DNA of 33,453 nt from a virus, in the IMG/VR virus record IMGVR_UViG_3300046520_000064, positions 1-33,453 of that record. One strand, written 5' to 3'. The notes beneath the pieces are model-generated. The model was not told where the DNA came from. It saw only the letters and a list, made by a program, of their open reading frames with translations, and did not search any database. Positions 1,698 to 9,943 of this stretch are shown in pieces. The translations under genes were made by a program, and so were the position numbers. The first letter of the stretch is position 1, and each line of letters starts with the position of its first letter.

Positions 1698-1785
1698 CCC
1701 CGACGTGGAACGTTGAACCCTCGGTGACGTCCTACCTGAAGAGGTAGCTGTCCGAAGCAGTCAACCCGAGGGAGGCTGTACTCCC

Positions 1786-1811
1786 ACTTGCACTTACGTA
1801 AGGAGTAAGTA
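1786..1811. promoter_or_regulatory. Operator-like cluster: GTGCAAGT site plus CTTACGTAAG palindrome
   Basis: GTGCAAGT on the minus strand (1786-1793) runs into the palindrome CTTACGTAAG (1793-1802) and then GTAAGT (1805-1810). The site points toward the HNH gene, the orientation seen for this motif elsewhere. Likely a repressor/stoperator site upstream of the packaging block. Confidence 0.5.
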
Positions 1812-1823
1812 GCTTCGGTCAGC

Positions 1824-1841
1824 GAGGCCCGTCAGGGCCTC
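1824..1841. other. Hairpin GAGGCCC-GTCA-GGGCCTC
   Basis: Perfect 7-bp inverted repeat with a 4-nt loop in non-coding DNA. No T run follows on either strand, so it is only a weak terminator candidate. Confidence 0.4.
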
Positions 1842-1862
1842 AAGCCTTCTACCTCGTGCTTC

Positions 1863-1882
1863 GTACTTACCCTTGTACTTAC
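1863..1882. repeat. Two GTACTTAC direct repeats, 12 bp apart
   Basis: Exact 8-bp copies at 1863-1870 and 1875-1882 in non-coding DNA upstream of the packaging genes. They resemble the TAAGT/ACTTA elements of the nearby palindrome (1793-1811), suggesting protein-binding sites. Confidence 0.4.
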
Positions 1883-2098
1883 TGATACGGAGCTCGACAG
1901 GTAGAAGTTTCCATCAGTCCAACGTGACCGTGGTCACACTTACACAGTGAGGCTTCGAGGCTGGGCCGCCTGGCGGCGGCCGACTGACCTGGGATGCAAC
2001 GGCGAAGCGATGCAGGGGCGAAGCCACGATGGGCGCCAAGGGCGCCACAGAGCAGAGCCACTTACGACCTGGGGGCGCTACCGCGCCCCGGTATCCCA

Positions 2099-2127
2099 GT
2101 GACAGTAAGCCACTTTCCGTCTACGCT
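2099..2127 (+). promoter_or_regulatory. Promoter for a possibly leaderless small gene
   Basis: GTGACA (2099-2104), 17-bp spacer, TACGCT (2122-2127). The ATG at 2134 lies 7 nt after the -10 box with no Shine-Dalgarno, so transcription would begin at or next to the start codon. Leaderless mRNAs are common in Streptomyces. Confidence 0.5.
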
Positions 2128-2133
2128 GGGGCC

Positions 2134-2319
2134 ATGCCCAACGACGATGACCTCCGCTTCGCGCTCCAGATGGCTGGCGCCAACCTCTCCCCGACGCCCC
2201 TGACCCCCGACTCCCCGCTCGGCCGGCTGCGTCTCTTCGCCGCTGCCAATCCTGGGGTCACGCTGGGGCGGAAGCACGTCCAGGCCGCGGTCGACGGCAC
2301 GCTGGTGCGCCCCTCCTGA
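2134..2319 (+). CDS. Small protein of unknown function, possibly leaderless
   Basis: 61 aa from ATG 2134 (MPNDDDLRFALQMAGANLSPTPL...). The third codon positions are strongly G/C, as in the real genes here, and the frame is preceded by a good promoter whose start point coincides with the ATG. The protein is mostly helical in look, with a short acidic start and LGRLRLFAAANPGVTLGRKHVQAAV in the middle. I recognise no family. It is alone in the otherwise non-coding hub between the packaging and early blocks. The main doubt is that high GC produces false frames readily. Confidence 0.5.
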   Translation: MPNDDDLRFALQMAGANLSPTPLTPDSPLGRLRLFAAANPGVTLGRKHVQAAVDGTLVRPS

Positions 2320-2434
2320 TCGACCCTGAAACCGTGGCGCGATCTTGGCCGGTAAGACATGGCGGTCAGCGAGCTCGCGTCCAGGGGGTCCTACCCCACC
2401 CCCACCCGTCCCGTCAACGTGACGACGCGCACAC

Positions 2435-2440
2435 TTGCAC
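2435..2440 (+). promoter_or_regulatory. TTGCAC element within a minus-strand GTGCAAGT site
   Basis: ACTTGCAC at 2433-2440. TTGCAC could act as a -35 box with TACCCT 17 bp downstream (2457-2462). The motif itself is the repeated repressor-site candidate. Confidence 0.35.
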
Positions 2441-2566
2441 AGCCATCGGGTCTCAGCTACCCTCTCGCGCGCTCCCGCCCCTTCCCTGGAACATCGCCCC
2501 AAGCGACCCCGGAACGGGCGGGAAACGGGCTCTCAGCCCTTCTCACGCACCCCCTGACCTGCGGGT

Positions 2567-2595
2567 TTGACAAAGGCGTGCAAGTGGCGCAGAGT
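2567..2595 (+). promoter_or_regulatory. Promoter-like TTGACA-N17-CAGAGT with GTGCAAGT in the spacer
   Basis: TTGACA at 2567-2572 and CAGAGT at 2590-2595, with the repeated site GTGCAAGT (2578-2585) between them, where a bound repressor would block polymerase. The -35 box is perfect; the -10 box is weak. Confidence 0.45.
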
Positions 2596-2663
2596 TCTGT
2601 CTGTCGCCACAACGGGACGCACCGCAAGCCGCAAGGCAAGCGGGACGGACCAGGCAGCGACAC

Positions 2664-2692
2664 TTGCACAACCGAGCGAAAGCCTGTAAGGT
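2664..2692 (+). promoter_or_regulatory. Promoter-like TTGCAC-N17-TAAGGT
   Basis: TTGCAC (2664-2669) lies inside a minus-oriented GTGCAAGT site; TAAGGT is at 2687-2692 after 17 bp. Rightward orientation. Overlap of the -35 box and the motif would allow repression. Confidence 0.4.
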
Positions 2693-2809
2693 CGAGCTCA
2701 GCAAGGCAGCACAGCGGGTGAGTGAACCGGGATGTCGATGGTCCGGGGAACGGTTACCGAGTGGCGAACAGCGGCTCACCTGCACAACGCACGCCGAGCA
2801 AAGCGCAAC

Positions 2810-2842
2810 TTGCACAACCCGAAGCGAGTGTGATACTGTCGC
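2810..2842 (+). promoter_or_regulatory. Promoter-like TTGCAC-N16-GATACT with extended -10 and two motif copies
   Basis: TTGCAC (2810-2815) is part of a minus-oriented GTGCAAGT site (2808-2815). GATACT (2832-2837) is preceded by TGT (extended -10) and lies in the 14-mer TGTGATACTGTCGC (2829-2842), a subclass of the same motif that recurs at 4614, 7144, 9734 and, on the minus strand, 23320. Confidence 0.45.
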
Positions 2843-3247
2843 TTCAGCGCAAGGCCGAGAGGCCAAGCGCACACAGACTTCAGATTGTGGTTCGGACGGC
2901 TTCCACGCCTCCGGGCATCAGAGCTCAGCGACCCGATGGGAAGCGGGCTGGGAGAGGGCCACCTCGGAGTTCCCGGCAGCGCGCTCGGCTGGCCATTCGC
3001 AAACCTCTTCGGACTGGGTAGCCCTGGTGCGGCGGACCTCACATGTGAGTGTGGGGGCGTTCGCGGCCGGTACGAGTTCGGTGAAGCACCCCCCAGGGGG
3101 TGTGGAACTGTCAGTGAGTGAGCCTCACTGGCAGGTGATACCGGGCAGACCACTGGCGCATCAGGGAGGTCAGTTCGCCGTCCCTCGGACGGTCCCGGAA
3201 ACGGGGCCCAGGGGGACGGCGGGAGGGCTCAAGACCCTCACGCAGTA

Positions 3248-3293
3248 CCGGTCCCGCAAGGGACCGGGGGAGTCCCGCAAGGGGGTCCCGCAA
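3248..3293. repeat. GCAA-capped hairpin and three GTCCCGCAA repeats
   Basis: CCGGTCCC-GCAA-GGGACCGG (3248-3267) is a perfect 8-bp stem with a GNRA tetraloop. GTCCCGCAA occurs at 3251-3259, 3272-3280 and 3285-3293. It sits about 100 bp upstream of the early-operon promoter; it could terminate or insulate transcription or be part of an origin. Confidence 0.5.
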
Positions 3294-3379
3294 AGCCCCT
3301 CTCGGGACCGCTCGCCAGTACGGGAGCGGGGCCCGTGCTGCAAAAGCCAAGGGGGGTACCACGTCACCGGCTCCGCTGG

Positions 3380-3411
3380 TTGACAGCACACCCCAAGTGT
3401 GCAAGTGTAGC
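3380..3411 (+). promoter_or_regulatory. Candidate early rightward promoter with overlapping repressor site
   Basis: TTGACA (3380-3385) followed after 17 bp by AAGTGT (3403-3408), which is inside the 14-mer TGTGCAAGTGTAGC (3398-3411). The minus-strand promoter candidate upstream of the repressor gene (27784-27756) has the same layout, TTGACT-N17-AAGTGT. The first gene of the operon starts 22 bp downstream. Confidence 0.55.
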
Positions 3412-3432
3412 AACACACGAACGGAGAGCACG

Positions 3433-3816
3433 ATGGACTGCACGTACGCCTTCCACCCCGCCACCGCGACGCACTACTACCGCACCGCCGCTGGCACCAA
3501 GCTCCACCTCTGCGCCGACTGCGCAAGCAGCTTCGGGTACCCCGAGTACCTGGTCCCGGTCCAGCCCGCCCCTTGGCGCAAGGCGTACGGCTACCTGGTC
3601 AACGCCCACATCGGGGACGGTAGCGACGACCTGGTCGCGGACCTCTGGCCCTTCGAGGGTGACGACGCCGAGCGGTGGCTGCGGGCCCTGGGCAACCAGG
3701 ACAAGTACCTGCTCGCCGACGCGGCCTGGGAGCCCTACCGGGCACACCAGACTGAGGTGCAGGGCCTGACGATCGAGTGCACCAGGGTCACTGTTCTGCC
3801 ACTTGTGCAAGTGTGA
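3433..3816 (+). CDS. Conserved phage protein with CxxC motif, first gene of the early operon
   Basis: 127 aa from ATG 3433, behind GGAGA. Early in the protein is CTYAFHPATATHYYRTAAGTKLHLCADCASSFG, in which Cys3 and the CADC pair plus His could bind zinc; the rest is acidic (DGSDDLVADLWPFEGDDAERW). I do not recognise the family. The gene ends with codons for VQV in which CTTGTGCAAGTGTGA contains the repeated repressor-site 14-mer, so the stop codon lies inside the motif, as also at 9730. It is followed by hammerhead ribozyme 1. Confidence 0.8.
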   Translation: MDCTYAFHPATATHYYRTAAGTKLHLCADCASSFGYPEYLVPVQPAPWRKAYGYLVNAHIGDGSDDLVADLWPFEGDDAERWLRALGNQDKYLLADAAWEPYRAHQTEVQGLTIECTRVTVLPLVQV

Positions 3817-3834
3817 CAAGTGTGAGAGTGTAGC
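3804..3834 (+). promoter_or_regulatory. Tandem pair of TGTGnnnnTGTnRC sites
   Basis: TGTGCAAGTGTGAC (3804-3817) and TGTGAGAGTGTAGC (3821-3834), 17 bp apart and both pointing with transcription. The first overlaps the stop codon of the upstream gene. Three other gene junctions have pairs with 16-17 bp spacing. Confidence 0.6.
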
Positions 3835-3844
3835 AACGTCGAAA

Positions 3845-3910
3845 GGCGAAACCTCCCCGCCCCCAAGGGGAGGTCCGGCCAGGTGGTTCCTGGTCGCTGA
3901 TGAGCCAGCC
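3845..3910 (+). ncRNA. Type II hammerhead ribozyme 1
   Basis: Stem II GGC (3845-3847) with GCC (3904-3906) faces outward. GAA+A is at 3848-3851. Stem III ACCTCCCC/GGGGAGGT (3851-3858 with 3867-3874) has an 8-nt loop. Cleavage is expected after C3875 (GUC). Stem I CGGCCAGG/CCTGGTCG (3876-3883 with 3889-3896) has loop TGGTT. The core CUGAUGA is 3897-3903. Loop-I GGUU (3885-3888) can pair with AGCC (3907-3910). All core bases match the hammerhead consensus. The next start codon is 26 nt beyond stem II. Confidence 0.95.
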
Positions 3911-3932
3911 TGCTCGATCCCAAGGAGTCCCC

Positions 3933-4109
3933 ATGGTTTCCCTCGACAAGACGACCCACTCGATCCAGCTCAGCCGCTACAGGGCCCGGGTGAACGCCGG
4001 TCTGCGGCAGAACAACCTCCGGGCCCTGTCGCTGGAGTTCGGCGAGCGGGTGCATGACGCCGAGGTCAAGGCGTTCGAGGCGCACAAGGCCGAGGTGCTG
4101 GCCCGATGA
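3933..4109 (+). CDS. Small helical protein of unknown function
   Basis: 58 aa, ATG 3933 with AAGGAG 7 nt upstream. The sequence (MVSLDKTTHSIQLSRYRARVNAGLRQNNLRALSLEFGERVHDAEVKAFEAHKAEVLAR) is basic at the front and forms an amphipathic helix pattern at the end. No family is recognised. It lies alone between ribozymes 1 and 2, so after cleavage it would be the only gene on a 283-nt RNA unit (3876-4158). Confidence 0.75.
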   Translation: MVSLDKTTHSIQLSRYRARVNAGLRQNNLRALSLEFGERVHDAEVKAFEAHKAEVLAR

Positions 4110-4127
4110 GAAGGACTGAGTAGTGAA

Positions 4128-4193
4128 GGCGAAACCTCCCCGCCCCCAAGGGGAGGTCCGGTCGGCTGGTAGCCGATCGCTGATGAGCCAGCC
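4128..4193 (+). ncRNA. Type II hammerhead ribozyme 2
   Basis: Stem II GGC (4128-4130)/GCC (4187-4189). GAA+A 4131-4134. Stem III 4134-4141 with 4150-4157, identical to copy 1. Cleavage after C4158. Stem I CGGTCGGCT/AGCCGATCG (4159-4167 with 4171-4179), 9 bp with a GGT loop. CUGAUGA 4180-4186. Stem I differs from copy 1 at most positions on both strands yet stays fully paired, which is direct covariation evidence. The start codon follows 25 nt after stem II. Confidence 0.95.
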
Positions 4194-4214
4194 GCTCAAT
4201 CCCGAGGAGACGCA

Positions 4215-4595
4215 GTGACGACGTACGTACACCCCGCAGCGTGGTCCGAGTACACCGCCGCCCTTGACTGGGCGAGGACGGGCAGCGAGAGGATCGCGGC
4301 GGCCACCAGTGAGCCCAAGGAGATGCCCCGCGGTGCGCGGTACTACCTGACCAACGACTTTCAGTCCGGGTTCGGGGTGGCCAAGGACGGCACGCTGATC
4401 GGCCTGTTCTCCCTGGTCAAGGGGCGCGGTGAGGATCTCATGTGGGACGCGGTGAACCACAAGGGTGCGAGCAAGCTGGACTGCTTCGACGGGTTCCTGC
4501 CCGAGTACTACAAGCGGTTCGGGTTCATCGAGACGGAGCGGGTTGCGAACTGGACGCCGGGTGAGCCCGACGTGGTGTTCATGAACCTGGCGTAG
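4215..4595 (+). CDS. GNAT-like acetyltransferase domain protein
   Basis: 126 aa, GTG 4215 behind CCGAGGAGACGCA. The core (YYLTNDFQSGFGVAKDGTLIGLFSLVKGRGEDLMWDAVNHKGASKLDCFDGFLPEYYKRFGFIETERVANW) has the GNAT order: a strand, a central strand G.LIGLFS, then LPEYYKRFGF, the usual GNAT end motif in which Tyr is near the acyl-CoA sulfur. A clear Q/RxxGxG/A acetyl-CoA loop is not obvious, so it may be a divergent member. Target unknown. It follows ribozyme 2 and is followed by two repressor-motif copies rather than a ribozyme. Confidence 0.6.
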   Translation: MTTYVHPAAWSEYTAALDWARTGSERIAAATSEPKEMPRGARYYLTNDFQSGFGVAKDGTLIGLFSLVKGRGEDLMWDAVNHKGASKLDCFDGFLPEYYKRFGFIETERVANWTPGEPDVVFMNLA

Positions 4596-4596
4596 G

Positions 4597-4627
4597 TGTG
4601 CAAGTGGAGCAAGCGTGATACTGTGAC
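4597..4627 (+). promoter_or_regulatory. Tandem pair of TGTGnnnnTGTnRC sites
   Basis: TGTGCAAGTGGAGC (4597-4610) and CGTGATACTGTGAC (4614-4627), 17 bp apart, just after the stop codon of the gene ending at 4595. GATACT in the second could double as an extended -10 box. Confidence 0.55.
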
Positions 4628-4650
4628 AACGTCAAGCAAGGGAGCAGGCG

Positions 4651-4782
4651 ATGGACGGATACAGCATCGAGCGGGAGTGGACCGCGGAGGAGCTCGCGGA
4701 GCGGCTGGCCGACCTGGAGTACGGCGAGCGGCGCAGGGCCCTGGAGATCGCGGACAAGATCGCGGCATCGCACTACGAGTGA
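4651..4782 (+). CDS. 43-aa acidic/helical protein, unknown
   Basis: ATG 4651 behind GGGAGCAGGCG. Translation: MDGYSIEREWTAEELAERLADLEYGERRRALEIADKIAASHYE. It is a highly charged, continuous-helix protein with no Cys, perhaps a small partner or inhibitor. Codon use is typical of the neighbouring genes and the gene is tightly packed: its stop is 3 nt before the first base of ribozyme 3. Confidence 0.7.
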   Translation: MDGYSIEREWTAEELAERLADLEYGERRRALEIADKIAASHYE

Positions 4783-4785
4783 CAA

Positions 4786-4843
4786 GGCGAAACACCCTCG
4801 CGGGTGTCTGACCGGGTGGTTACCGGTCACTGATGAGCCAACC
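4786..4843 (+). ncRNA. Type II hammerhead ribozyme 3
   Basis: Stem II GGC (4786-4788)/GCC (4837-4839). GAA+A 4789-4792. Stem III ACACCC/GGGTGT (4792-4797 with 4802-4807), loop TCGC. Cleavage after C4808. Stem I TGACCGG/CCGGTCA (4809-4815 with 4823-4829), loop GTGGTTA. CUGAUGA 4830-4836. Loop GGUU (4818-4821) pairs perfectly with AACC (4840-4843). Both stems differ from copies 1 and 2 with pairing kept. The next start is 50 nt away, the longest gap of the set. Confidence 0.95.
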
Positions 4844-4889
4844 CCCCACAAGCGTTGTCCATCCAGTTTGAGGCTGAAAGGCCACCTTG

Positions 4890-4985
4890 ATGCAGATCAC
4901 CCTGCACGTGCACGACCGGCTCTCTCTCGATGTCCGTGGGCACCGTGAGGCGAGCAACTGGGAGGTCGCCTTCTTTAGGCGTTGA
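4890..4985 (+). CDS. 31-aa protein, unknown
   Basis: ATG 4890, preceded by GAGGCTGAAAGG. Translation: MQITLHVHDRLSLDVRGHREASNWEVAFFRR. The pattern suggests beta strands. It is the only open frame on the 289-nt unit between ribozymes 3 and 4, which argues that it is expressed; the short length keeps confidence moderate. Confidence 0.55.
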   Translation: MQITLHVHDRLSLDVRGHREASNWEVAFFRR

Positions 4986-5056
4986 CCACCGATCGGCACA
5001 GCAACACCTCACACGCAGATCCCCGGTCGTCGGATCGGGATGGTGTGACCTCAAGC

Positions 5057-5134
5057 GCGAAACACCCGACTGAACTGCCCTCAGTGCGGCGGGTGTTGGC
5101 CAGGCGTGGCGGCCTGGTCCTGATGAGCAGCCAC
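5057..5134 (+). ncRNA. Type II hammerhead ribozyme 4 (variant)
   Basis: GAA+A 5059-5062. Stem III ACACCCG/CGGGTGT (5062-5068 with 5090-5096) carries a nested hairpin ACTGA/TCAGT. Cleavage triplet is GUU (after U5097), allowed by the NUH rule but usually slower than GUC. Stem I GGCCAGGC/GCCTGGTC (5098-5105 with 5112-5119), loop GTGGCG. CUGAUGA 5120-5126. Stem II has only 2 bp (GC 5057-5058 with GC 5127-5128), but loop GUGGC (5106-5110) can form 5 bp with GCCAC (5130-5134), which may compensate. Confidence 0.88.
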
Positions 5135-5156
5135 CCATACCGAGAGATGAGAGACC

Positions 5157-5774
5157 ATGATCCCCATCAAGCCCGACGCCAAGACCCGTGAGCAGTACGT
5201 GCGGAACATCGTCGACACGTGGCTGGACGCGTCCCCCGAGCAGGAGTTGCAGGGACGGGACTGGTACCCGAGTGCGCACCGCCTGGCCGCAGGGATGGCG
5301 GAGGGTGATGTCCGGATCGGCGCCGGCCTCCTGGCCGCGCTGTCTCCGCAGACGGCATGGTGGCTGAACGTCGAGCTCGCCACGGAGGCGTACGAGACGG
5401 GCACCCCGGCCAGACACCTGGGTGACGCACTGGCCAAGGCGTCGAAGATCCTGGCGGGTGTCGACCCGGCCGAGGTGCTCCCGATGGACCGCAAGACCGG
5501 CCACTTCTACCGCTGCATCTTCGACCCGACGGACGCGGACGCGGTCTGCATCGACAGGCACGCACACGACATCGCGGTGGGGGAGGAGTACGGCGCCCGT
5601 GACCGGGGCCTGGGTGCCAAGGGTCGGTACGCCCTGATCGCGCACTGCTACCGGGAGGCGGCCCAGCGCCTGGGTGAACTGCCCTCGGCCGTGCAGGCGG
5701 TGACCTGGGTGGTGTGGCGGGACCGCCTGGTCGGGACGTCCACGCGGGGAACCATGTTCGCTACTGCGGTATGA
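5157..5774 (+). CDS. Conserved actinophage protein (DUF7178-like)
   Basis: 205 aa, ATG 5157. Recognisable blocks: NIVDTWLDASPEQELQGRDWYPSAHRLA near the start, GLLAALSPQTAWWLNVELATEAYETG, AKASKILAGVDPAEVL, GHFYRCIFDPTDADAVCIDRHAHDIAVG and YREAAQRLGELPSAVQAVTWVVWRDR. I recall this arrangement from a family common in actinobacteriophages (DUF7178). The VCIDRHA segment recalls the catalytic Asp region of helix-hairpin-helix DNA glycosylases, but no glycosylase claim is made. It is the only gene on the 721-nt unit between ribozymes 4 and 5; the stop is followed by a GTGCAAGT site. Confidence 0.75.
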   Translation: MIPIKPDAKTREQYVRNIVDTWLDASPEQELQGRDWYPSAHRLAAGMAEGDVRIGAGLLAALSPQTAWWLNVELATEAYETGTPARHLGDALAKASKILAGVDPAEVLPMDRKTGHFYRCIFDPTDADAVCIDRHAHDIAVGEEYGARDRGLGAKGRYALIAHCYREAAQRLGELPSAVQAVTWVVWRDRLVGTSTRGTMFATAV

Positions 5775-5775
5775 C

Positions 5776-5789
5776 TGTGCAAGTGTGAC
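5776..5789 (+). promoter_or_regulatory. TGTGCAAGTGTGAC site
   Basis: Exact match to the 14-mer, 2 nt after the stop codon of the gene ending at 5774, oriented with transcription. A related copy, TGTGAAGGTGTGAC, lies at 5857-5870 just before the next start codon, so the two flank ribozyme 5. Confidence 0.55.
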
Positions 5790-5796
5790 ACACGAA

Positions 5797-5854
5797 GCCG
5801 AAACCCCTGGAAGGGGTCGGGTGGAGCGGGTCTCCACTCCTGAAGATGGCAACC
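5797..5854 (+). ncRNA. Type II hammerhead ribozyme 5 (degenerate core)
   Basis: Stem II is inverted relative to the other copies: GCC (5797-5799) with GGC (5848-5850). GAA+A 5800-5803. Stem III ACCCC/GGGGT (5803-5807 with 5813-5817). Cleavage after C5818. Stem I GGGTGGAG/CTCCACTC (5819-5826 with 5832-5839), loop CGGGT. The core reads CUGAAGA (5840-5846): the change is at the variable position 7. One extra U (5847) separates the core from stem II, which departs from consensus. Loop GGU can pair with ACC (5852-5854). Activity is uncertain. Confidence 0.75.
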
Positions 5855-5874
5855 AGTGTGAAGGTGTGACAGAG

Positions 5875-6453
5875 ATGATCCCGAGCAACGTAGTGCGGTG
5901 CCAGGTCGACAACGGCCCGATCCTCTACCCCCTGAAGCCCGGCCCGTACAAGTGCGAGACCTGCGGTGAGGGCCTGAAGTACGACCAGCGCCCCACGCCC
6001 GGCCTGTACTGGGGCGAGAGCTACGGATACCTGGCCGTGAACGAGGTCGAGGAGGACGAGCGGGACTCCGACGAGGAGATCGAGGATCTGTACTCCGCGA
6101 TCGGTGTCTTCGCCCGCATCCTCGGCGACCAGATGACGGCACACGGAGTGGGCGGCCACTTCACCTGCACCGAGGCGGAGGAGCTGGCCCGAACGCTGGC
6201 CAAGAACGGCCACAAGCGGGCGGCGATGACCTTCCTGGAGGGCCACGCCTACGGGGACGACGACCCGGACGACCTGCACGCAGGCATCGACGACTACGAG
6301 GCATGGGTCCTGGAGCTGGCCGGTCAGCCCGTGCCCGTGCTGATCGAGGGACCCAAGGCCAAGGCCGAGGTGGTGACCGAGGGCACGGTCGTGAAGCACG
6401 AGCTGGAGGTGGTGACGACCGAGGAGCTGGTGGTCCTGCTGAACCTGAACTGA
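5875..6453 (+). CDS. Acidic protein with a CxxC knuckle, unknown
   Basis: 192 aa from ATG 5875. An upstream in-frame start exists but would run through ribozyme 5, so 5875 is preferred; GAAGGTG lies 7-14 nt upstream. Near the start is RCQVDNGPILYPLKPGPYKCETCGEGL, a possible zinc knuckle; the rest is very acidic (NEVEEDERDSDEEIEDLYSAIGV) and helical. No family is recognised. It is the single gene between ribozymes 5 and 6. Confidence 0.8.
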   Translation: MIPSNVVRCQVDNGPILYPLKPGPYKCETCGEGLKYDQRPTPGLYWGESYGYLAVNEVEEDERDSDEEIEDLYSAIGVFARILGDQMTAHGVGGHFTCTEAEELARTLAKNGHKRAAMTFLEGHAYGDDDPDDLHAGIDDYEAWVLELAGQPVPVLIEGPKAKAEVVTEGTVVKHELEVVTTEELVVLLNLN

Positions 6454-6456
6454 CCT

Positions 6457-6513
6457 GGCGAAACCCCTTCGGGGGTCCGGGGTGGGTGGCATCCCCCCGC
6501 TGATGAGCCTGCC
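6457..6513 (+). ncRNA. Type II hammerhead ribozyme 6
   Basis: Starts 3 nt after the upstream stop codon. Stem II GGC (6457-6459)/GCC (6507-6509). GAA+A 6460-6463. Stem III ACCCC/GGGGT (6463-6467 with 6472-6476) is capped by a UUCG tetraloop. Cleavage after C6477. Stem I CGGGG..GGG / UCC..CCCCG (6478-6486 with 6492-6499) has one bulged U (6483). CUGAUGA 6500-6506. Loop GGCA (6488-6491) pairs perfectly with UGCC (6510-6513), where copy 3 has GGUU with AACC: compensatory change in the pseudoknot. Start codon 25 nt further. Confidence 0.95.
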
Positions 6514-6534
6514 GTACGTGATCGGAGAACCACA

Positions 6535-6678
6535 GTGACCCCCAAGTTCCGCACCCACGACCTGAACGTCCGCGACTCCAAGCGCACGGACAAGGCAACG
6601 ACGCTGGCCCGCAAGCACGTCCGGCAGAACAAGTACGAGGCCAGTGAGGCCGTCGTCCGCATCGCCACCCACGCCTGA
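6535..6678 (+). CDS. 47-aa basic protein, unknown
   Basis: GTG 6535 behind CGGAGAACCACA. Translation: VTPKFRTHDLNVRDSKRTDKATTLARKHVRQNKYEASEAVVRIATHA. Strongly basic and helical, perhaps nucleic-acid binding. The next gene follows in 16 nt with its own GAGGAG, without a ribozyme between, so the two would stay on the same processed RNA. Confidence 0.7.
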   Translation: MTPKFRTHDLNVRDSKRTDKATTLARKHVRQNKYEASEAVVRIATHA

Positions 6679-6694
6679 TCGAGGAGACACGACA

Positions 6695-7120
6695 GTGCCC
6701 AGCACCGACGAGATCAAGAAGTACGTCACCGACCAGGTAGCGCAGGACATCATCGACATCGCGGCCGGGGGAGGGATCACCTACTGGGCGACGGAGCCGA
6801 CCGCGGAGGAGTTCGCCGGCCTGCCCGAGGGCAAGGCGTGGACGATCACCGAGGGCTCTGCGCCGCACCCGATCTTCGCCTTCGACGATGTGCGTGAGGT
6901 CGAGGGAGTCCACTACCTGAGTGCGGACGACATCCGCGAGGCGTACGGCAAGCTGCTCGACATCGACCAGGCGTACGTGAACCGGGAGTACCACGGCTAC
7001 ATCATCGAGTCGTGGATGGACAGGGACGACAAGCAGGGCATCGACGCTGGCCACATCGACGCGGGCACGGCTGACATCCTCGTCCAGCTCGCCGCGCTGG
7101 GGGAGATCCGCTACGGCTGA
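6695..7120 (+). CDS. Hypothetical acidic protein
   Basis: 141 aa, GTG 6695 behind GAGGAGACACGACA. Starts MPSTDEIKKYVTDQVAQDIIDIAAGGGITYWATEPTAEEFAGLPEGKAWTITEG and contains VREVEGVHYLSADDIREAYGKLLDIDQAYVNREYHGYIIESWMDRDD. It has features of small all-alpha/beta phage early proteins with many Asp/Glu. I recall similar unnamed proteins in actinophages but give no function. Followed by a degenerate/good motif pair and ribozyme 7. Confidence 0.8.
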   Translation: MPSTDEIKKYVTDQVAQDIIDIAAGGGITYWATEPTAEEFAGLPEGKAWTITEGSAPHPIFAFDDVREVEGVHYLSADDIREAYGKLLDIDQAYVNREYHGYIIESWMDRDDKQGIDAGHIDAGTADILVQLAALGEIRYG

Positions 7121-7126
7121 GGGGAG

Positions 7127-7157
7127 TGTGCAACCTGCGCACCTGTGATACTGTGAC
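7127..7157 (+). promoter_or_regulatory. Tandem pair of motif sites, first degenerate
   Basis: TGTGCAACCTGCGC (7127-7140) and TGTGATACTGTGAC (7144-7157), 17 bp apart, 6 nt after the upstream stop codon and 8 nt before ribozyme 7. The second copy contains an extended -10-like TGTGATACT. Confidence 0.55.
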
Positions 7158-7165
7158 CACATCAA

Positions 7166-7225
7166 GGCGAAACCACCCGAGGGGGTGGTCGGGCGGGGAG
7201 GACCCCCGCTCCTGATGAGCCAACC
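7166..7225 (+). ncRNA. Type II hammerhead ribozyme 7
   Basis: Stem II GGC (7166-7168)/GCC (7219-7221). GAA+A 7169-7172. Stem III ACCACCC/GGGTGGT (7172-7178 with 7183-7189), loop GAGG. Cleavage after C7190. Stem I GGGCGGGG/CCCCGCTC (7191-7198 with 7204-7211, one G-U), loop AGGAC. CUGAUGA 7212-7218. Loop GG can pair with CC (7224-7225), the weakest pseudoknot of the set. The start codon is 22 nt past stem II. Confidence 0.95.
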
Positions 7226-7243
7226 CTTGTGAAGGCGAGACCG

Positions 7244-7627
7244 ATGGACACCATCGAGAAGATCAACCACTACGACCCCCCGACCCTGGCCCGCCTCGCC
7301 CAGTGCGCCGAGCCCGACTCGCGAGTGAGTGAGGGCGCCGACTTCCTCGCCCTCGTACGGGACAAGGTGGTCGACCTGGTCCAGGAGTTCGGGGAGGTGA
7401 GCACCCCCTACCGCGAGGCCATCCAGGACGCCGCCGCCGACATCGGCAGCACGGCCGAGCCCAGCGTGAAGTGGCGCCGGTTCGTGGACCTGAGTGCCTA
7501 CAAGGAGAACGTCACCGAGTTCGGACGGCCCAGCCCGGACACCCCCGAAGGGCACGCCGACCTGGCCCTGTTCTTCATCGGGTTCCGCCTGGCCAGTGCA
7601 CTGATCACCGAGATTGAGAAGGGCTGA
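7244..7627 (+). CDS. Hypothetical actinophage protein
   Basis: 127 aa from ATG 7244 with GAAGGCGAG upstream; a GTG at 7229 in the same frame is less likely because it falls on the ribosome-binding site. Content: MDTIEKINHYDPPTLARLAQCAEPDSRVSEGADFLALVRDKVVDLVQEFGEVSTPYREAIQDAAADIGSTA..., mostly helical and acidic, ending LALFFIGFRLASALITEIEKG. No family is recognised. First gene of the longest processed unit (7191-8573), which carries four genes. Confidence 0.8.
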   Translation: MDTIEKINHYDPPTLARLAQCAEPDSRVSEGADFLALVRDKVVDLVQEFGEVSTPYREAIQDAAADIGSTAEPSVKWRRFVDLSAYKENVTEFGRPSPDTPEGHADLALFFIGFRLASALITEIEKG

Positions 7628-7632
7628 ACACC

Positions 7633-7845
7633 ATGGGACGCATGAAGGACATCGCCATCGACCTGATGAGCTTCGAGTCGGACGAGCTGGAGATCGACGA
7701 GATCGTGGAGCTCTTCGCCTTCCTCATCCGCAGCGGTCTGGTGTGGACGTTGCAGGGTTGGTACGGGCGAGCAGCCCTGGACCTGATCGACGCCGGGATC
7801 ATCAGCTCGGAGGGCGAGATCCTGACGGAGCTGGTGCCCGGATGA
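7633..7845 (+). CDS. Small acidic protein, unknown
   Basis: 70 aa from ATG 7633, 5 nt after the preceding stop. Translation begins MGRMKDIAIDLMSFESDELEIDEIVELFAFLIRSGLVWTLQGWYGRAALDLIDAGIISSEGEIL. I recall this kind of short protein (an acidic helix followed by IRSGLVWTLQGWYGRAA..LI..G.I) from many actinophages, always without a function. Overlaps the next gene's ATG (ATGA at 7842). Confidence 0.8.
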   Translation: MGRMKDIAIDLMSFESDELEIDEIVELFAFLIRSGLVWTLQGWYGRAALDLIDAGIISSEGEILTELVPG

Positions 7846-8285
7846 GTGACCTGCCCCGACAGCTCAGTGCGCGTGTCGACGAGGAGCTGGCCCGCCACAT
7901 CAAGACGCTCGCCCCGACGGGCCTGAGCTACAGCGAGATCATCAAGCAGGCGGTCGCCCAGTTCGCCCTGACGTACTCGGTGGCCGTAGACCACGGCGTC
8001 GCCAAGCCGCACGAGATCCCGAGGCTGACCGCCTTCAAGTTCGAGCTCCCTCCCCTCTGGCAGCCGCCGAGAACCGGAGCGATCACCCTTCCCCCGCTGA
8101 ACCCCACCAAGGAGAACCCCAATGAAGCTCGTCCGCACCGCACTGACGTCCCTCGCCCTCGCCGTGACGGGCTCCCTGATCTGGGCCTCGCCGGCCTCCG
8201 GGTCGCCGGACGTGAAGCCGGTGGCCCTGCCCACCGCGGTGAAGTACGTCCCGGTCTTCCACATCCCGACTCGGCCGTGCGCTGA
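7842..8285 (+). CDS. Ribbon-helix-helix-like DNA-binding protein with out-of-frame 3' overlap
   Basis: 147 aa from ATG 7842. The N-terminal part LPRQLSARVDEELARHIKTLAPTGLSYSEIIKQAVAQFALTYSVAV has the ribbon-helix-helix pattern: a basic strand, a helix and a second helix starting after GLSYSE. Up to about residue 90 it looks like a normal protein. The last 55 residues (ARPHRTDVPRPRRDGLPDLG...) are Arg/Pro-rich and are read from the same DNA as the start of the next gene (8122) in another frame. The original stop may have been lost, giving a 164-bp overlap. It could be a local transcription regulator. Confidence 0.65.
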   Translation: MSDLPRQLSARVDEELARHIKTLAPTGLSYSEIIKQAVAQFALTYSVAVDHGVAKPHEIPRLTAFKFELPPLWQPPRTGAITLPPLNPTKENPNEARPHRTDVPRPRRDGLPDLGLAGLRVAGREAGGPAHRGEVRPGLPHPDSAVR

Positions 8286-8532
8286 CGACCACGACGACCG
8301 CAACTGCTACTGGGACGGCGCCGGTCCGGCGTACTACGTCGACCGCGCAGGCAACGTGACGTACCTGAACCCGAAGCTGAACGACCCGGCCAAGCGTGCG
8401 GCGTGGACCAAGACGAACAAGGCCGCGCACCGCGAGTACTGGGGCACCGTGTGGGGGCACCGCCTGTGCTGGGCGAAGGTCGGCGACACCTCGTACATCT
8501 ACTGCTTCGACGGTCACCGCGAAACGTCCTGA
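8122..8532 (+). CDS. Secreted four-cysteine protein
   Basis: 136 aa, ATG 8122 behind AAGGAGAACCCCA. A classical Sec signal peptide is visible: MKLVRT, then the hydrophobic core ALTSLALAVTGSLIWA and a cleavage region ASPASGS (mature part from about residue 28). The mature part has four cysteines (RPCADDHDDRNCYW and HRLCWAK...IYCFD), suggesting two disulfides, and many aromatic residues (GAGPAYYVDRAGNVTYLNPKLND). No family is recognised. A small exported protein made by a phage early operon could act at the envelope, for example in superinfection exclusion, but this is inference. Followed by ribozyme 8. Confidence 0.75.
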   Translation: MKLVRTALTSLALAVTGSLIWASPASGSPDVKPVALPTAVKYVPVFHIPTRPCADDHDDRNCYWDGAGPAYYVDRAGNVTYLNPKLNDPAKRAAWTKTNKAAHREYWGTVWGHRLCWAKVGDTSYIYCFDGHRETS

Positions 8533-8538
8533 CCCGAG

Positions 8539-8552
8539 TGTGCAAGTGTGCC
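8539..8552 (+). promoter_or_regulatory. TGTGCAAGTGTGCC site fused to ribozyme 8
   Basis: Copy of the 14-mer whose last four bases (TGCC, 8549-8552) are also the 5' strand of stem II of ribozyme 8, so protein binding on DNA and RNA folding share bases. Confidence 0.5.
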
Positions 8553-8609
8553 GAAACCTCCTGAAGGGAGGTCGGGGTGGGGTGGCGCCCACCTCCTGAT
8601 GAGGCAGCC
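8549..8609 (+). ncRNA. Type II hammerhead ribozyme 8
   Basis: Stem II TGCC (8549-8552)/GGCA (8603-8606), 4 bp, inverted relative to copies 1-3, 6 and 7. GAA+A 8553-8556. Stem III ACCTCC/GGAGGT (8556-8561 with 8567-8572). Cleavage after C8573. Stem I GGGGTGGG/CCCACCTC (8574-8581 with 8588-8595, one G-U), loop GTGGCG as in copy 4. CUGAUGA 8596-8602. Loop GGC can pair with GCC (8607-8609). The start codon is 24 nt past GGC (8603-8605). Confidence 0.95.
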
Positions 8610-8629
8610 GTGATGAGGGGAGCACCACC

Positions 8630-9161: not shown

Positions 9162-9730
9162 CCGACCTGATCGTCGGCCTCAGCGGATACGCGAGGTCCG
9201 GCAAGAACACAGCGGCTGACGCCCTGATCCAGCGAGGCTGGAGGCAGGCAGGCTACGCCGACAAGCTGAAGGAGTTCCTGTACGCAGTGAATCCCTTGAT
9301 CCCTGGGCACTACGGTGCCGGGAGCCTGCGCCTGCGGCAGCTCGTCGACTCGACCGGCTGGGACTACGCGAAGACCGCGTACCCGGAGGTCCGGTCCCTG
9401 CTCCAGCGCACGGGCACCGAGGCAGGCCGGCGAGTACTCGGCGATGACGTGTGGGTGGATGCCCTGTACGTCGACCACCAGGACGCGGCCGGCCTGGTCG
9501 TGACCGACGTCCGCTTCCCCAATGAGGCGGAGGCCGTGGCCAAGCGTGGTGGCGTGATGATCCGGGTCGAGAGGCCCGGCGTGGGCCCGACCAAGGACAA
9601 GCACGGACGAGCCCACGTCAGTGAGACCGCGCTGGATGACTGGCCCTTCGACCACGTGCTGGTCAACGACGGGTCGGTGGATGACTTGCACGCCAAGCTG
9701 CACGGCGTCGCCGAACTTGTGCAAGTGTGA
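9158..9730 (+). CDS. Deoxynucleoside monophosphate kinase
   Basis: 190 aa, GTG 9158. The P-loop GLSGYARSGKNTAAD is at residues 7-21 (Lys16), of the GxxxSGKNT type seen in phage dNMP kinases. Further family marks are YADKLKEFLYAVNP, LLQRTGTEAGRRVLGDDVWVDAL and VVTDVRFPNEAEAV, where Asp/Arg residues hold the monophosphate substrate. It should convert dNMPs to dNDPs in the cytoplasm, working with ThyX, dCMP deaminase and the ribonucleotide reductase of this phage. The gene ends inside a repressor-motif copy (stop in CTTGTGCAAGTGTGA), as does the first gene of the operon. Confidence 0.88.
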   Translation: MTDLIVGLSGYARSGKNTAADALIQRGWRQAGYADKLKEFLYAVNPLIPGHYGAGSLRLRQLVDSTGWDYAKTAYPEVRSLLQRTGTEAGRRVLGDDVWVDALYVDHQDAAGLVVTDVRFPNEAEAVAKRGGVMIRVERPGVGPTKDKHGRAHVSETALDDWPFDHVLVNDGSVDDLHAKLHGVAELVQV

Positions 9731-9747
9731 CGGTGTGATACTGTGAC
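9718..9747 (+). promoter_or_regulatory. Tandem pair of TGTGnnnnTGTnRC sites over a stop and a start codon
   Basis: TGTGCAAGTGTGAC (9718-9731) covers the stop of the kinase; TGTGATACTGTGAC (9734-9747) covers the GTG start (9743) of the next gene. Starts are 16 bp apart and both point with transcription. Confidence 0.6.
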
Positions 9748-9943
9748 CATCAGAACGATCCGGGAGCTCGACGAACTGCCTGACGGTACGGAGATCGAGA
9801 TCCAGGACAAGCGAGACACGCCCCTCTTCAAGCGAGACGGCGACTGGCACAGCCCAAGCAAGACGGCGACGCAGAACATGATCGCCTACGTCAACACCCG
9901 GCGCTGGGGAGTACGGGTCGTCGAGAGAGGAGGTCGGGAGTGA
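9743..9943 (+). CDS. Small protein with beta-rich start, unknown
   Basis: 66 aa, GTG 9743 inside the motif copy; no clear Shine-Dalgarno precedes it, so coupling to the kinase stop 12 nt upstream may be used. Translation: MTIRTIRELDELPDGTEIEIQDKRDTPLFKRDGDWHSPSKTATQNMIAYV..., a pattern I recall from short actinophage proteins (LPDGT.I...G...K..G.W). Function unknown. Overlaps the next gene by GTGA. Confidence 0.7.
   Translation: MTIRTIRELDELPDGTEIEIQDKRDTPLFKRDGDWHSPSKTATQNMIAYVNTRRWGVRVVERGGRE

Follow-up and report, generated by a model that had tools for sequence, protein, structure and literature searches.

Hammerhead ribozymes and an apparently undescribed tRNA-like minihelix replace each other at gene junctions of actinophage operons: two candidate devices for splitting early transcripts

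The window analysed here (the whole stretch of DNA, i.e., the 33,453-base IMG/VR virus record IMGVR_UViG_3300046520_000064) has eight intergenic type II hammerhead ribozymes (HHRs), every one of them on the plus strand. We regard it as probable that these elements cleave the early polycistronic RNA of an R4-like phage at its gene junctions. At orthologous junctions, phages of two sister genera carry a tRNA-like minihelix (TLS), which apparently was undescribed until now. We also favour, with less assurance, the broader proposal that early operons of actinophages are divided at corresponding junctions by either of two unrelated, interchangeable devices: a self-cleaving HHR, or a TLS at which host RNase P and/or RNase Z makes the cut. 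TLSs occur in dozens of phages and some bacterial contigs, and at least one virus would use both devices in one operon.

A covariance-model search, suggested by the first-pass annotation of this DNA, was run with the Rfam model RF02276 (Hammerhead_II; curated cut-off, 37 bits). Seven of the eight copies reached the cut-off, all on the plus strand (37.0–58.1 bits). They are HHR1 (3844..3914; predicted cut after C3875; 47.0 bits; core and stems also parsed), HHR2 (4127..4197; C4158; 46.5 bits), HHR3 (4785..4847; C4808; 47.1 bits), HHR4 (5055..5136; U5097; 58.1 bits; long stem III), HHR6 (6456..6517; C6477; 37.0 bits), HHR7 (7165..7229; C7190; 40.4 bits) and HHR8 (8549..8613; C8573; 51.2 bits). 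The other copy, HHR5 (plus strand, about 5797..5859; predicted cut after C5818), was parsed from its parts. The eight cut positions, computed as C17 sites, are identical to those predicted in the first-pass annotation. The GAAA and CUGANGA segments and an NUH triplet were parsed in all copies, the triplet being GUC in seven of them and GUU in HHR4. Both the parse and the covariance-model alignments show stems I and III closed by loops and stem II open, so that the type II topology and core of the initial proposal are confirmed. The pattern CGAAAC..GTC..CTGATGAG occurs six times in the window, versus zero times in each of 100 dinucleotide shuffles. Every copy is intergenic, with a stop codon 2–69 nucleotides (nt) upstream and a start codon 14–42 nt downstream, and none overlaps a chosen gene. 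Over 68 nt, HHR1 shares 90% identity with HHR2, and their differences are mainly paired changes in stem I. The minimum free energy (MFE) z-scores of single copies, obtained by single-sequence folding, are weak (+0.25 to −3.05) and are not the main evidence; what supports the ribozymes is their core, their fit to the covariance model and the comparison between phages.

This comparison accounts for HHR5, which gave no match to RF02276. It comprises GAAA, stem III, GUC, an 8-bp stem I and CUGAAGA, with an extra U between A9 and stem II. The CUGAAGA was considered as a core change and rejected, because N7 is a free position; the actual departure is the U bulge, which recurs in 36 of the 118 HHRs of these phages. 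The same junction of phage Spernnie holds the same element, differing only in the loops and in one stem I wobble, while other relatives have full-scoring HHRs there. Judged from these observations, HHR5 is the orthologue of the scoring HHRs with a recurrent one-base bulge, and the initial count of eight plus-strand intergenic hammerheads stands as seven RF02276 matches plus this bulged orthologue.

From its sequence, the window phage is assigned to the R4-like Streptomyces phages of the subfamily Arquatrovirinae. Of the 99 records that match the window in megablast, the nearest are R4-like Streptomyces phages, with Spernnie at the top (83% identity across 91% of the query); a plasmid search gave no match. 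The HHR relatives studied are 11 phages, belonging to the five genera Arequatrovirus, Caelumvirus, Sentinelvirus, Omarvirus and Janusvirus, plus the unclassified Jevington; together with the window they are referred to as the 12 HHR phages. The array is not particular to this phage: all 11 relatives tested carry 8–14 HHRs per genome (113 in total by RF02276 scan), and the arrays are thus conserved over five genera. All 113 copies lie on the early-operon strand, within the last ~10–11 kb of the ~50-kb genomes, and most of them stand 0–45 nt past a stop codon and 10–20 nt ahead of the next start codon. The operon contains, in order, an unknown gene at 3433, an acetyltransferase family, an Ocr-like antirestriction family, a deoxynucleoside monophosphate kinase and ThyX, and it is from this gene content (the Ocr-like family, the kinase and ThyX) that we infer it to be an early operon. 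In the 118 parsed copies, window included, the cleavage site is GUC in 109, GUU in eight and GUA in one. As first proposed, the stems vary and yet remain paired, through pairwise changes between copies and between phages. Since the parser chose paired stems I, "100% paired" holds by construction and only the exchange of pair types (G-C, C-G, A-U and U-A all replace each other) is informative. Annotated small hypothetical proteins overlie some HHRs of the relatives (L125 3898-3999, 6855-6947 and 9227-9310; L126 3277-3369; L127 1410-1568); these small proteins (R4 gp75.1, gp67.1 and gp60.1, and others) are probably misannotations.

The sister-genus phages Amela (Camvirus), Sujidade and Whatever (both Likavirus) have no HHRs. 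The early genes of Amela and Sujidade are likewise separated by gaps of ~80–120 nt, which hold the TLS. This 48-nt element comprises a 5-bp stem, the 11-nt strand ACYGGCASRCA, and a 6-bp stem with the T-loop UUCGAGU, followed by A-C-U. It thus reads as an acceptor stem plus a T-arm, the rest of the tRNA being missing. All 11 pairs form in each of the 15 copies from Amela and Sujidade, and the covariation score of these copies is 0.501, versus 0.118 ± 0.028 in shuffled alignments and at most 0.12 once the partner is displaced by 1–3 columns. No Rfam family corresponds to the TLS. The closest likeness is the mascRNA-menRNA family (RF01684; MALAT1 tRNA-like RNA), for which two TLSs scored 21.3 and 21.9 bits, far short of the 42.5-bit cut-off. 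ARAGORN found two tRNAs in Amela, one of which overlaps a TLS and is probably spurious, and none in Sujidade. The view of the TLS as an ordinary tRNA was rejected from these Rfam and ARAGORN results and the lack of an anticodon arm.

The two devices occupy the same junctions, which are orthologous as judged by protein families. A TLS covariance model found nine TLSs in Amela, seven in Sujidade and six in Whatever, and none in the window and its 11 HHR relatives. First, the F2-F3 gene pair (plus strand; F2, 6535..6678; F3, 6695..7120), which HHR6 precedes in the window, has HHRs at its borders throughout the 12 HHR phages, whereas in Amela and Sujidade the borders are TLSs. Second, family F1 (4215..4595, plus strand; annotated as acetyltransferase in relatives) comes after an HHR in each of the 12 HHR phages, while in Amela a TLS takes that place. 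Third, the element ahead of family F23 is an HHR in R4, Hank144, Paedore and Jevington but a TLS in Amela and Sujidade (the automated junction count missed the TLS of Amela). Fourth, at the F3-F16 junction a box TGTGCAACCTGCGCAC is common to the window and Sujidade, and is followed by an HHR in the former and by a TLS in the latter. In the window it belongs to the promoter-like box TGTGCAACCTGCGCAC..TGATACTGTGACC (7126..7164, plus strand), which adjoins HHR7 upstream; F16 itself (7244..7627, plus strand), downstream of HHR7, is the Ocr-like family, annotated as OCR-like antirestriction protein in R4, Amela, Sujidade and Jevington. Finally, over the 19 gene families shared by both groups, with two TLS phages, six of the eight families preceded by a TLS are mostly HHR-preceded in the HHR phages, versus zero of the 11 others (Fisher p = 0.001). 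This replacement of one device by the other suggests that what matters is the cutting of the mRNA between genes, whatever the means.

The TLS extends beyond the sister genera. A geometric scan of the fetched loci yielded 414 TLSs (284 of them unique), versus none in 505 kb of shuffled sequence. In this set every varying pair covaries above shuffles, and all 52 loci with at least three TLSs have their copies on one strand. A G at position +1 is present in 93% of the TLSs, and the stem is followed by A-C-U/G; UUCGA and GG were preset conditions of the scan. The mycobacteriophage Send513 has ten TLSs in 8.8 kb, nine of which are in gaps between annotated genes. The intergenic TLS arrays of Likavirus, Camvirus, Send513 and other actinophages include those of L143 (5291-9753) and L144 (8549-13832, minus strand), as well as of L150, L199, L292 and others. 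TLSs also occur in bacterial contigs (Streptomyces, Kribbella, Amycolatopsis and others), which are probably prophages. In one virus (L199/L243; L199 7439-10503) one HHR and then six TLSs occupy successive junctions on the same strand. No HHR reached the cut-off in any of the 36 virus records that have several TLSs; two of these records have one weak match. A lone TLS-like match in the HHR set (L094) is poor and unlike the consensus, and was treated as due to chance. In L176 (2580-2868; IMGVR_UViG_3300038552_000146), the TLSs are ~105–135 nt apart, too tight for ordinary genes in between.

We propose that the HHRs would cut the early transcript by themselves, unaided, during its synthesis. After each cut in the cell, the upstream message would end in the stem III hairpin, and the downstream message would begin with a 5′-hydroxyl and the stem I hairpin, ~50–80 nt before its start codon. 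The long RNA would thereby be turned into one- or two-gene mRNAs with structured ends, whose stability would be affected in that they would be degraded independently. At HHR7, with its promoter-like box upstream, both new and read-through transcripts would be trimmed to an identical 5′ end. At the TLS, the early RNA would likewise be divided, probably by the host enzymes RNase P and/or RNase Z; that the TLS is itself self-cleaving is a view we do not prefer. In most copies a hairpin begins 1–5 nt past the TLS (34-nt MFE of −10.3 versus −6.6 kcal/mol shuffled), and because it follows so closely, a cut 3′ of the TLS would place a hairpin at the 5′ end of the downstream mRNA, like an HHR cut.

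Several points weigh against these proposals. HHR4, with its GUU, and HHR5, with its U bulge, may be slow or inactive. A 4-bp pseudoknot between loop I and the 3′ tail is possible in 78% of the unique copies, versus 65% with the tails permuted and 37% with the loop letters shuffled (47% versus 26% with Watson-Crick pairs only), and lends modest support. Several junctions of the same operon have neither device, which means that cutting is not needed everywhere. The acceptor and T stems of the TLS stack to 11 bp, one pair fewer than the 12 bp found in tRNA, and there is no 3′ CCA. The exchange statistic draws on 19 gene families and two TLS phages. Finally, in a 10-protein tree the two TLS phages form one clade (support 100), while the monophyly of the HHR phages has a support of only 53, and for that reason no direction of the swap is claimed.

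Among the alternatives, the one that survives best, though we hold it unlikely, is that the HHRs are real but serve chiefly to release or trim small RNAs or leaders, through 5′ trimming at internal promoters or excision between paired HHRs, rather than to divide the operon. In line with it, HHR7 begins just past a conserved promoter-like box; tandem HHRs only 1–2 nt apart occur in Spernnie, Sentinel and Jevington (L124 5135-5263, L127 1416-1548 and L133 1279-1414), where back-to-back cutting would release a short RNA; and HHR3 and HHR4 bracket a segment of ~290 nt that has its equivalent in relatives. However, most HHR copies are alone between two genes, without a promoter-like box, and the HHR3-HHR4 segment looks like a short message, not a leader, because it carries a conserved small open reading frame (ORF). 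This 31-amino-acid (aa) ORF (MQITLHVHDRLSLDVRGHREASNWEVAFFRR; 4890..4985, plus strand) is matched by a related ORF, 29 to about 46 aa long, at the same position in all 11 relatives (L124-L134), and would come free as its own ~290-nt message. The conserved microprotein of ~30 aa (..QVLLDxR..RE.S..E..FFRR) is unannotated in several of these phages.

Still less probable is the view that HHRs and TLSs are parts of gene cassettes, as points of DNA recombination or passengers of mobile genes, with RNA processing incidental. The gene content between the elements does vary among phages, and HHR1 closely resembles HHR2. But the stems covary while the primary sequence diverges, which is the opposite of what homologous recombination needs; the arrays keep to one strand (113/113 HHRs and 52/52 multi-copy TLS loci); and HHR and TLS have the same junctions with no common sequence. 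Least of all do we credit the elements as terminators, attenuators or 3′-end stabilising hairpins that act without cleavage: stems III and I are strong G+C-rich hairpins, and a U-less terminator class reportedly exists in the early region of phage phiC31, but a terminator needs neither the catalytic core nor the NUH triplet kept in the 118 parsed copies, and in sister phages a TLS with a tRNA T-loop stands at the same place.

The remaining features of the operon segment can be listed briefly, all on the plus strand. HHR1 is preceded by a gene of family F15, without assigned function (3433..3816), and HHR4 is followed by family F19 (5157..5774; Pfam DUF7178). Searches of Pfam and PHROGs provided almost no functions for the genes lying between HHRs. 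A repeated box TTGTGCAAGTGTGA has 20 matches in the window with at most three mismatches, versus 1.5 expected, at sites within 1782-3820, 4593-4630, 5775-5788, 7126-7166, 8535-8555 and 9717-9749. At some sites it is followed by TGATACTGTGAC; it is promoter- or operator-like, and often lies just 5′ of an HHR.

If the proposed cutting holds true, self-cleaving RNA or borrowed enzymes of tRNA processing divide phage operon transcripts into separate messages, and the TLS is a new common RNA element for phage annotation. The purpose of HHRs in phage operons has been an open question since 2011, and relatives with HHRs, with TLSs, or with both in one array constitute a natural comparison that points to intergenic cutting as the selected function.

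In animal mitochondria, tRNA punctuation marks the cut points of the polycistronic transcript. Similarly, we propose that a folded intergenic RNA marks the cut point here, with the difference that HHRs are enzyme-free, while TLSs lack an anticodon arm and stand in phage operons. RNase P and RNase Z process members of the mascRNA/menRNA group. Two TLSs resemble these weakly (RF01684) in having a T-arm and the remnant of a cloverleaf, but they score far under the cut-off, and the TLS belongs to another host kingdom and context. As for RNase P, it also cuts non-tRNA substrates, such as the phage C4 and M3 RNAs and polycistronic bacterial mRNAs (PMC11143913). Like C4 and M3, the TLS is a tRNA-like fold in phage or operon RNA; unlike them, TLSs form repeated arrays of a common 48-nt design at gene junctions, and their cutting is a prediction. 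The G at +1 and the A-C-U/G past the stem would fit the known contact between RNase P RNA and an RCC motif (PMC12710915).

The closest precedent is that of Perreault et al. 2011, who found clustered type II HHRs flanking single genes or small gene blocks in prophages, with cleavage shown in vitro (tandem sets) and, for one set, in E. coli; one set flanks the antirestriction gene ardA, and the processing of long phage transcripts was proposed (PMC3088659). The first-pass annotation knew of no description of such an array, but the arrangement is not new. Since both these clusters and the transcript-splitting idea were published (PMC3088659), the present HHR array is of a known kind, though large and family-wide. 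Like the prophage clusters, it consists of type II HHRs, several on one strand, flanking individual phage genes, some of them by an antirestriction gene. It differs from them in its 8–14 copies per genome, its spread over five genera of one subfamily, its restriction to the presumed early operon, and the exchange with TLSs in sister genera. In a literature search covering open-access papers, neither HHR arrays in R4-like phages nor the TLS were found to be described. Together, these comparisons leave the HHR array alone as something of a published kind, and single out the HHR/TLS exchange as the new element of the finding, worth following.

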